A stretch of 64,000 bases of DNA from an uncultured Prevotellaceae bacterium (GTDB lineage Bacteria > Bacteroidota > Bacteroidia > Bacteroidales > Muribaculaceae): assembly GCA_947169265.1 (NCBI GenBank), contig CAMVPC010000014.1, forward strand, positions 1-64,000, given 5' to 3'. Shown piece after piece: positions 37,035 through 38,933 of the stretch. The notes under the pieces were generated by a model. The model had not been told where the DNA came from. It saw only the letters and a list, made by a program, of their open reading frames with translations, and ran no database searches. Position numbers and translations under genes: made by a program. The first letter of the stretch is position 1; every line of letters begins with the position of its first letter.

Positions 37035-37475
37035 TTACTTGCAGCAGCACTCGGCCTCGCTGCGGCAGCACTCGGCCTTGTCACACTTGCCGTCCTTGAG
37101 GCAGTGCTTAGCGGCATCGTCACATTTGTTATCCTTACTGCATTGCTTGCCGGCCTTGTCGCACTTGGCGGCCTTGTCGCACTTCTCGGCCTTGTCGCAC
37201 TTGACAGCAGCCTTGTCGCACTTGACAGCAGCCTTGTCGCACTTGACAGCAGCCTTGTCGCACTTGACAGCGGCCTTGTCACACTTGGCCATCTTGGCCT
37301 TGTCGCATTTTTGCATCGGGGCCTTGTCGCATTTTTGCATTTGGGCCTTGTCGCATTTCTCAGCTTTCTCACATTTGGCCTGCTTGGGGCTGTTTTCGAC
37401 CTTTGCAGGAGCTTGCGCCTGCACAAAAGCCACCGCAAAGATGGCAATCAACATTGACAGAATAGTACGTTTCAT
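37035..37475 (-). CDS. Secreted cysteine-rich KCDKA-repeat protein
   Basis: A 146-residue exported protein with signal peptide MKRTILSMLIAIFAVAFVQAQ. The mature part is almost entirely repeats of K-C-D-K-A plus two or three residues (KCDKAQMQ, KCDKAPMQ, KCDKAKMA, then four perfect KCDKAAV units). More irregular units follow, and the end is CCRSEAECCCK. I count 20 cysteines, each mostly spaced seven residues apart and flanked by Lys and Asp. No known family is recognised. Spaced thiols in the periplasm or at the surface suggest metal binding, redox buffering or cross-linking; this is inference. It is monocistronic with a strong terminator. Confidence 0.85.
   Translation of the reverse strand: MKRTILSMLIAIFAVAFVQAQAPAKVENSPKQAKCEKAEKCDKAQMQKCDKAPMQKCDKAKMAKCDKAAVKCDKAAVKCDKAAVKCDKAAVKCDKAEKCDKAAKCDKAGKQCSKDNKCDDAAKHCLKDGKCDKAECCRSEAECCCK
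37190..37273 (-). repeat. Four tandem 21-nt repeats inside the cysteine-rich gene
   Basis: Four head-to-tail 21-nt units (37190-37210, 37211-37231, 37232-37252, 37253-37273), the first three identical and the last with one change near its end. Each encodes KCDKAAV, so gain or loss of units keeps the frame. Confidence 0.9.
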
Positions 37476-37557: not shown

Positions 37558-38898
37558 TTAAAACAGCGAGAGCTCGCGGGGAGATTCGGGCTTGGGACAA
37601 AAACGCTTGGTCAACCGGGCCACAGCGTGCTCGTCGGGGTCAAGGGCCAGCACACGACGGCTTGCGGCGGCAGCCTCAAGGGCACCGTTAGCGTGGCAAC
37701 GGGTCACGAGCAGCGTGCCTTGGGGCGGGCAAGCCGAATCGATAATGACACGCCCTATGGCGGTCGTGAGTCCCCCACCCTCGTCGGCGGCCTGTCGCCA
37801 CACATCGCCGGGTGCGGGACCGGGCGTCACTTGCAGGAAGAAACCGCGCTCGTTCACGCCGCGTCCCTGCGGCGTGTCGTCGCCCATGGGAATGCGGCTC
37901 TCGCGCAGGAAGAGGCGGAAGTCGGCTATTTCGCCCGTGTCGAGTTGCGCCATAGCCTGGTCGAGGGCTTGTGTTGCGGCCTGCTTCTCGTCATCGCTCA
38001 TGTGCTTGGCGCTTTCGATTTTTCGCCGGTATCCTTGGCCGGTTTTCGTGGTGCGGCGGTTAGTGACGATGAGTTCGTTAAACATACGCTTGAAGGTGAC
38101 ACTGTCGAACCATGCCGCGTCGGCATCCTTGACAAGGTGGAGCACCAGGTCGTGACGCGGGGCGATGCCGGCATGCTGCGGCGTGTCGCTGTTTTTCTTG
38201 TCCCACACGATGTCGTGGGCCAGTATCCAGCCTTGTTCGCGTTCCAAGGCGAGCGCCAGTTGCCAGTTGAGCGTGGTGGCGCGAGTCCCGTGTCGCAAGT
38301 GCAACCACAGGCTTCCCGTGGAGCGCAAGACGCGGTAATATTCTTGTGTGAGTGCCAGCAAGGCGGGCAACTGATCTTCGCCGGTGAGCAACGTTGCGGC
38401 AGCCACGATGCAGTCGGCGCTCGCGTCGTGCAGGCGTGAGAGCAACGCAAGCTCCTCGCCGGCATGTAGCGCCGGTTCGCCCTCACGGGTCGGGAAATCC
38501 AAGTCGCGCGCGACCACCGCGGGCGGCGGCGTGAGACGGACTGCCTGAGCAACAACAGGCTCGGGAGCGGGCATCACGGCAGGCCGGGCGGTCGTCGCCG
38601 GTTCGTGGCGTTCCTCGTCCATACCCAGGTGCCGGCGCAGGTAAGTCATGGCCTCGGTGGCCATGCGGTCGTGCCCTATCTCGCCCAGGGCGGCGAACGC
38701 GAGCCATCGTCCCACAAGCTCGGCCTCATCGACGCCGAAGATGCGCGCCAGTTTCACCACCTGCTCGCGCTTGGGGCGCCGCTCGCCGTGCTCGTAGCGG
38801 CAATACATGGGCACGTCCACGCCAATGGCGGCGGCCAGTTCGCGTTGCCGCTTTCCACTCCGTTCTCTCAGTTGTCTCAATCGTTCAGGAAAAAGCAT
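37558..38898 (-). CDS. XRE-family HTH protein fused to an apparently inactive DNA methyltransferase
   Basis: A 446-residue protein; the ATG at 38898 gives MLFPERLRQLRERSGKRQRE. Residues 5-62 are an XRE helix-turn-helix (QRELAAAIGVDVPMYCRYEHG) of the kind that precedes some Bacteroidetes methyltransferases. From about 130 the order matches an N4/N6-type DNA methyltransferase: LLSRLHDASADCIV (151-164), YYRVLRSTGSLWLHL (187-201), DIVWDKKNSDTP (229-240), PRHDLVLHLVK (247-257), the GEIADFRLFLRESR region (322-335), and a C-terminal CPPQGTLLV...RRVLALDPDEHAVARLTKR (390-432). However the catalytic (D/N/S)PP(Y/F/W) motif is replaced by AAATLL (166-171), and the SAM motif DPF-G-GT is replaced by VTRCHANGA (398-406). 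An inactive enzyme used as a DNA-binding regulator is inferred. No endonuclease gene is adjacent. Confidence 0.8.
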   Translation of the reverse strand: MLFPERLRQLRERSGKRQRELAAAIGVDVPMYCRYEHGERRPKREQVVKLARIFGVDEAELVGRWLAFAALGEIGHDRMATEAMTYLRRHLGMDEERHEPATTARPAVMPAPEPVVAQAVRLTPPPAVVARDLDFPTREGEPALHAGEELALLSRLHDASADCIVAAATLLTGEDQLPALLALTQEYYRVLRSTGSLWLHLRHGTRATTLNWQLALALEREQGWILAHDIVWDKKNSDTPQHAGIAPRHDLVLHLVKDADAAWFDSVTFKRMFNELIVTNRRTTKTGQGYRRKIESAKHMSDDEKQAATQALDQAMAQLDTGEIADFRLFLRESRIPMGDDTPQGRGVNERGFFLQVTPGPAPGDVWRQAADEGGGLTTAIGRVIIDSACPPQGTLLVTRCHANGALEAAAASRRVLALDPDEHAVARLTKRFCPKPESPRELSLF

Positions 38899-38925
38899 AA
38901 TCTTCCCCTTGTTGTTAATTCGTGA

Positions 38926-38933
38926 CAAATTTA
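38926..38933 (-). promoter_or_regulatory. Probable -7 box of the HTH/methyltransferase-like gene
   Basis: Minus-strand TAAATTTG (38933-38926) lies 28 nt before the start codon. The expected -33 TTTG is not at the right distance (nearest at 38949-38946, 12 nt), so the promoter may be weak or need an activator. Confidence 0.4.

Follow-up and report, generated by a model that had tools for sequence, protein, structure and literature searches.

Introduction

In the published account of M.SsoII, two molecules of this DNA methyltransferase bind a palindrome at their own promoter and repress the methylase gene (PMC6100179). METTL14 offers a published precedent for a dead methylase fold that is kept for binding (PMC5023411). 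Bacterial DNA methyltransferases are almost always read as enzymes. In the N4/N6 class, motifs IV and I are required for catalysis and for the binding of S-adenosylmethionine (SAM). Among the matches listed in the open-licence PubMed Central (PMC) literature, judged by titles and abstract openings, none described a bacterial DNA pseudo-methyltransferase kept by selection as a regulator, and the one passage found in a 2026 review of prokaryotic methyltransferases concerned planned inactive mutants (PMC13076061). Here we describe a gene from an uncultured Prevotellaceae bacterium (Muribaculaceae in GTDB; assembly GCA_947169265.1, contig CAMVPC010000014.1, positions 1 to 64,000, hereafter the window; genome handle G000, completeness 95.6%), in which an XRE helix-turn-helix (HTH) domain is fused to a methyltransferase fold that has lost both motifs.

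Results

Loss of the catalytic and SAM-binding motifs

The gene is a single unbroken reading frame of 446 residues with an ATG at 38898. A first-pass annotation, made from the sequence alone, had described an intact frame, an N-terminal XRE HTH and landmarks of an N4/N6 methyltransferase. Profile matches bear this out: HTH_31 (3.4e-14, residues 5-61) and HTH_3 (1.3e-12, residues 7-61) are followed by a linker and then by a match to N6_N4_Mtase, PF01555 (31.2 bits at a cut-off of 26.7, residues 181-292). The beta-class fold of the methyltransferase half was confirmed by this profile, and matches to solved methyltransferases follow the usual order of elements. AlphaFold models of the protein and of an orthologue with intact motifs (L052; such copies are called live below) were weak, with a mean predicted local distance difference test score (pLDDT) of 51.5 and 51.6. 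The models were built from just 4 sequences, and core block means were 66-87 in residues 151-200; our statements on the fold are based on this core, on the matches to solved enzymes and on sequence.

In alignments, AAATLL stands where orthologues have TTPPYW (motif IV) and VTRCHANGA where they have LDPYCGTGT (motif I), as the first-pass annotation had proposed. Neither [DNST]PP[YFW] nor DPFxGxGT is present at these positions, and about 13 residues of the active-site loop after motif IV are deleted. Pattern searches with [DNST]PP[YFWH] and [DE].[FYM].G.G gave no occurrence across the whole protein. Together with the usual order of matches to solved enzymes, this rules out relocation of the catalytic motif. 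The loop deletion, a C-terminal LSLF and a promoter repeat (see below) are features that the first-pass annotation did not contain.

The closest orthologue (G027, JAGCUP010000169.1), from a Muribaculaceae metagenome-assembled genome (MAG) of yak rumen, reads VATAPL and VTNCQANGA at the motif IV and motif I positions. Since this is an independent assembly with the same motif losses, the losses are not a sequencing error; together with the low ratio of nonsynonymous to synonymous substitution rates (dN/dS), the shared losses also rule out a recent pseudogene. The protein is almost certainly a pseudoenzyme, and it is predicted neither to methylate DNA nor to bind SAM.

Selection on the dead copy

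Comparison with the G027 orthologue gave a whole-gene dN/dS of 0.155 (dS 1.0), well below 1; this and the following values are pairwise NG86 estimates, made at a dS close to 1 and, for the segments, from few codons each. By segment, dN/dS was 0.057 for the HTH, 0.082 for the region of motifs V-VIII and 0.061 for the insertion described below, and higher near the lost motifs (0.258 in the motif IV region, 0.183 in the motif I region). The corresponding values in six pairs of live copies were 0.01-0.04 (HTH), 0.01-0.07 (V-VIII), 0.00-0.04 (motif I region) and 0.01-0.37 (motif IV region, with four of six below 0.08). By these estimates, the clearest drop in constraint is in the motif I region; scaffold and insertion are still constrained, though less than in live copies. 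The claim that selection has kept a pseudoenzyme thus gains support: the two closest orthologues lack both motifs, and fold, HTH and insertion are under purifying selection.

The family across the genus and beyond

Matches to the XRE-methyltransferase fusion were obtained in 79 of the 101 genomes of the genus, which belongs to Muribaculaceae, own genome counted; in at least three of these (G064, G092, G113) the match was a short XRE protein only. Two further orthologues came from a roe-deer-rumen Muribaculaceae MAG and from RUG434, labelled uncultured Prevotellaceae. In a wider draw, 71 of 397 genomes of the family matched at 1e-20, and in the 7 matching genomes outside the genus similarity was confined to the methyltransferase part. 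The 7 homologues fetched from these other genera (L186-L192) are unfused: they have SPPYW and DPF[SC]GTGT but no HTH, and the live orthologue L006 is 34-39% identical to them over the first part of their methylase domain. As far as searched, HTH fusion thus appears to be a feature of the genus.

The insertion around GEIADFRLFLRESR that had been noted from the sequence alone was borne out: 15 of 77 aligned rows have a long version of this stretch, and its position in beta-class enzymes suggests that it recognises DNA. It looks ancestral, because all 7 unfused homologues of other genera carry it.

The 77-row alignment left out duplicates (L011, L051-L053) and frames below 170 residues, and several of its rows are contig-end fragments. 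Motif IV, covered in 76 rows, read PPYW in 62, LPYW in 5, APYW in 1 and VPYW in 1, and was absent from 7; motif I, covered in 75, was intact in 69 and broken in 6. Both motifs are kept in 61 of the 77 rows, so they are not lost throughout the family. The LPYW rows (L003, L004, L005, L035, L077) form a clade of methylases with intact motif I and an altered catalytic motif.

The seven rows without motif IV are the window gene, G027, the short forms of G015, G083, G069 and G120, and G076. In the short forms the middle of the methyltransferase domain is deleted. They keep the HTH (dN/dS 0.024 for the pair L027/L069), and the three that reach a stop keep the tail; the G069 form is cut by a contig end. 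The G076 copy (L111:5867-6799, minus strand) lacks the HTH, has DPMCKTGN at motif I and ends in QARLF, and its retained insertion is 53% identical to that of the window protein.

Compared with 19 chosen orthologues, the HTH of the window protein has a mean identity of 69%, the same as that of live L006, whereas the methyltransferase part averages 30% for the window protein and 58% for L006 (L006 is a member of the set, in which four sequences carry LPYW or VPYW for PPYW).

How many times the motifs were lost

In an rpoB tree of 29 genomes, the four short-form genomes group with the motif-intact G089 and G090 (97/93). G076 joins the window genome and G027 (97/89), and this group is neighboured by four genomes that lack a full-length copy (100/100). 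The fork uniting both dead groups is weak (80/48). In this tree the G005 branch has a length of 10, most likely because a wrong frame was extracted, G088 gave no rpoB match, and G076 and G117 occupy less than half of the alignment columns. The whole-protein tree carried a long-branch warning and joined the window protein to the short dead forms with weak support (86/60). Taken alone, it would permit a sister relationship of the two dead groups; we relied on the rpoB tree instead. Because it places the short forms with motif-intact genomes, motif loss apparently arose at least twice, given vertical descent.

The first-pass annotation had held that intact orthologues beside a single decayed copy would mean recent decay. 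Intact copies are indeed the majority, but decay is not recent and not limited to one copy, because the loss is common to two diverged species and apparently arose twice.

A promoter inverted repeat

Live and dead copies alike are preceded by a TAnnTTTG box, the Bacteroidetes -7 consensus, whose TTTG opens an inverted repeat, TTTGT-N9-ACAAA, mostly about 30 nt 5' of the ATG. In the window, this TTTG is the end of the TAAATTTG box (38926-38933). With a spacer of 9, at least 9 of 10 bases were present in 47 of 72 upstream regions and all 10 in 28, against 1.1 and 0.1 in shuffles, although the regions are homologous and the counts not independent. Other spacers from 4 to 15 gave counts of 1-8, except spacer 5 with 22, for which a flanking palindrome may account. 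The window repeat and those of the four short forms each score 9 of 10. We consider the repeat a candidate operator for autoregulation.

A separate inverted repeat, whose 17-bp arms pair at 14 or more of 17 positions, lies immediately 5' of the -7 box in 28 of 71 upstream regions (0 of 71 in mononucleotide shuffles). Eight of the 28 are perfect, and the left arm occurs in 21 different versions, so the two arms vary in step. These repeats occur mainly in the motif-intact L006-like clade (L006, L014, L024, L025, L044, L055, L062, L070 and others); in the dead copies L001, L002, L027, L069 and L074 the arms pair at only 10-11 positions. An RNA hairpin and a symmetric site for a protein are both conceivable.

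The C-terminal tail

[LM]S[LM]F was found at the C-terminus or one residue before it in 74 of the 75 rows that reach a stop, G076 being the exception. Among 275 naively called frames from 22 neighbourhoods, this tail was confined to family members. The bacterial sliding-clamp motif has been given as QL(S/D)LF at the C-terminus (PMC9690074). The tail reads ELSLF in the window protein and mostly PLSLF or SLSLF in relatives; because the Q is missing, clamp binding is a lead rather than a finding. None of the unfused homologues ends in [LM]S[LM]F, but the root of the tail may be older, because L186 (TSLFNENHW) and L189 (YSLFR) have SLF near the end. As a control, a scan of DnaE from the same genome gave no clear clamp motif and one match near the N-terminus. 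MutS (QLSFF) and UmuC (QLDVF) of this genome resemble clamp motifs by eye; the pattern scan reported neither.

Genomic position and neighbouring genes

In 20 of 22 neighbourhoods, those of G076 and of the short dead forms among them, the gene lies close to one or more shared genes, by inspection presumably VanZ-like, ComEA-like, sodium-symporter, dihydropteroate synthase and diadenylate cyclase genes. Of the remaining two, G004 has the gene at a contig end. The other is G027, in which, as in the window, the gene is instead found between a cysteine-repeat gene and a DEAD-box helicase gene, and the VanZ-like site of the window genome has no copy; among the loci compared, only G027 (L002, L051) matched the window neighbourhood. 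This suggests that the long dead form relocated along with its promoter. The VanZ-like gene of this genome (G000:C13:34361-34756, L112) has a TAA stop within the matched stretch.

The divergent neighbour in the window is the helicase gene, and that position holds no restriction endonuclease gene. For control of the helicase operon, suggested by the first-pass annotation, we found no evidence: the repeat belongs to the promoter of the gene itself, about 140 bp away from where the helicase begins, and the gene is located elsewhere in 20 of 22 neighbourhoods. The remark that no restriction enzyme is nearby holds for the gene and the five neighbouring genes that were checked. A mobile or defence element was rejected on the evidence of the neighbourhoods and of the PADLOC and PHROGs model libraries, and an anti-restriction role gained no support: the gene is chromosomal and in 20 of 22 neighbourhoods lies in a conserved region, and the PADLOC matches were generic methyltransferase models and the HTH parts of RmrA, capH and control-protein models. 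PHROGs matches were HTH regulators plus one methyltransferase family.

The cysteine-repeat gene (37035-37475, minus strand) encodes a small protein that starts with what looks like a signal peptide and carries tandem KCDKA repeats, rich in Cys, Lys and Asp; Pfam gave no match for it. Its G027 orthologue is 74% identical (dN/dS 0.073), and the protein is possibly metal-binding.

Table 1. Positions of the gene, its protein segments and the promoter repeat in the window
Feature	Position	Strand	Evidence
XRE-HTH / pseudo-methyltransferase gene, 446 aa	37558..38898	-	open frame, family matches
XRE HTH, residues 1-68	38695..38898	-	HTH_31/HTH_3 match
Beta-class amino-DNA methyltransferase fold, residues 144-442	37573..38469	-	
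Former motif IV, residues 166-171, AAATLL	38386..38403	-	alignments, regex
Target-recognition-type insertion, residues 281-350	37849..38058	-	common to 7 unfused homologues, long orthologues, G076 copy
Former SAM motif I, residues 398-406, VTRCHANGA	37681..37707	-	alignments, regex
C-terminal LSLF tail, clamp-motif-like	37561..37572	-	kept across family
Inverted repeat TTTGT-N9-ACAAC, candidate operator	38911..38929	-	9/10 bases at spacer 9

Discussion

On balance, we think that the gene encodes a pseudoenzyme retained as an autoregulated, methylation-incompetent reader of DNA. The DNA-binding regulator that the first-pass annotation had suggested stands as a best guess, which the kept HTH and insertion support. 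Its ancestor would be an orphan DNA methyltransferase, specific to the genus and already joined to an XRE HTH; the sequence shows that catalytic motif, SAM motif and active-site loop were lost while HTH, scaffold, insertion and promoter repeat were kept. The HTH may dimerise on the repeat that begins in the -7 box and repress its own gene, as in M.SsoII. The methyltransferase half may act as a reader, competitor or bridge that binds, but no longer modifies, the sequence it once recognised, and through LSLF the protein may still be able to dock on the sliding clamp. The most extended form of this idea, in which an orphan clamp-docking methyltransferase was turned at least twice within one genus into a dead, autoregulated reader of its former site that travels with the replication clamp behind the fork, we regard as doubtful.

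Several observations weigh against a retained regulator. Relatives are decaying: G076 has no HTH, and four related genomes have no full-length copy. The dN/dS estimates carry the limits of dS and codon number given above, and overall constraint appears relaxed relative to live copies: HTH and V-VIII of the dead pair lie about 1.2- to 6-fold above the six live pairs, and in the window/G027 comparison the gene is the loosest of eight (seven neighbour genes, 0.066-0.151). The motif IV value falls inside the live range, and residues 426-446 are loose (0.537, 20 codons). At the promoter, the G027 repeat scores just 8 of 10 bases, and 16 of 77 upstream regions have no box of the searched kind, some being truncated by contig ends. 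A strict 18-base operator pattern found two sites in the genome, and none with the pattern reversed; the second (L126) lies at the 3' end of a frame rather than at an evident promoter, so that no regulon is visible.

The main rival is a slow relic, in which methylation became dispensable in the clade and the gene survives mainly through self-repression by its HTH, with the remainder drifting to loss. In its favour, G078, G096 and G112 gave no match and G092 only a short XRE protein, the HTH is gone from G076 and the domain middle from the short forms, the last 21 residues have a dN/dS of 0.54, and the gene is looser than its seven neighbours. The low dN/dS of the dead scaffold and insertion (0.06-0.08) speaks against such drift, as does G076, which retained the insertion and not the HTH, the opposite of what selection on the HTH alone predicts; we consider this explanation rather unlikely. 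A role like that of METTL14 beside METTL3, in which the protein would assist an active methyltransferase without catalysing, seems very improbable within the PF01555 class, the one searched: its own genome has just two other PF01555 proteins above cut-off (628 and 627 residues, on other contigs) and one sub-threshold match, and the window protein, used as query, found no second copy of its family there. The pocket might also have changed its chemistry or bind another small molecule that controls the HTH. Its fold is kept, and the pocket motifs were replaced by sequence partly common to two species, but within the methyltransferase part it is the two motif regions that evolve faster, unlike a selected new binding site, which makes this very improbable.

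For the dead lineages, it is a mistake to call such genes methylases on the basis of fold alone. Selected dead copies beside a motif-intact majority in sister species would be natural separation-of-function pairs, in which mark-dependent phenotypes can be told from binding-only ones.

Among known systems, M.SsoII as described is probably the closest in working, with an N-terminal DNA-binding regulator domain, a linker and a C-terminal DNA methyltransferase. It is an active C5-cytosine enzyme, plasmid-borne and divergent from a restriction gene, whereas the window protein has a beta-class N4/N6 fold without catalytic motifs and is chromosomal and divergent from a helicase gene. The window protein does not belong to the M.SsoII group, because its methyltransferase half is of another class and has no catalytic motifs left. 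With the beta-class amino-DNA methyltransferases (M.BceJIV, MboIIA, RsrI, PvuII, CcrM) the window protein shares fold and element order, but it lacks their catalytic and SAM motifs and has an added XRE HTH. The unfused PF01555 methylases of other genera of the family have the same insertion, but no HTH and intact motifs. METTL14 and ImuB resemble it as catalytically degenerate members of enzyme families that retain binding roles.
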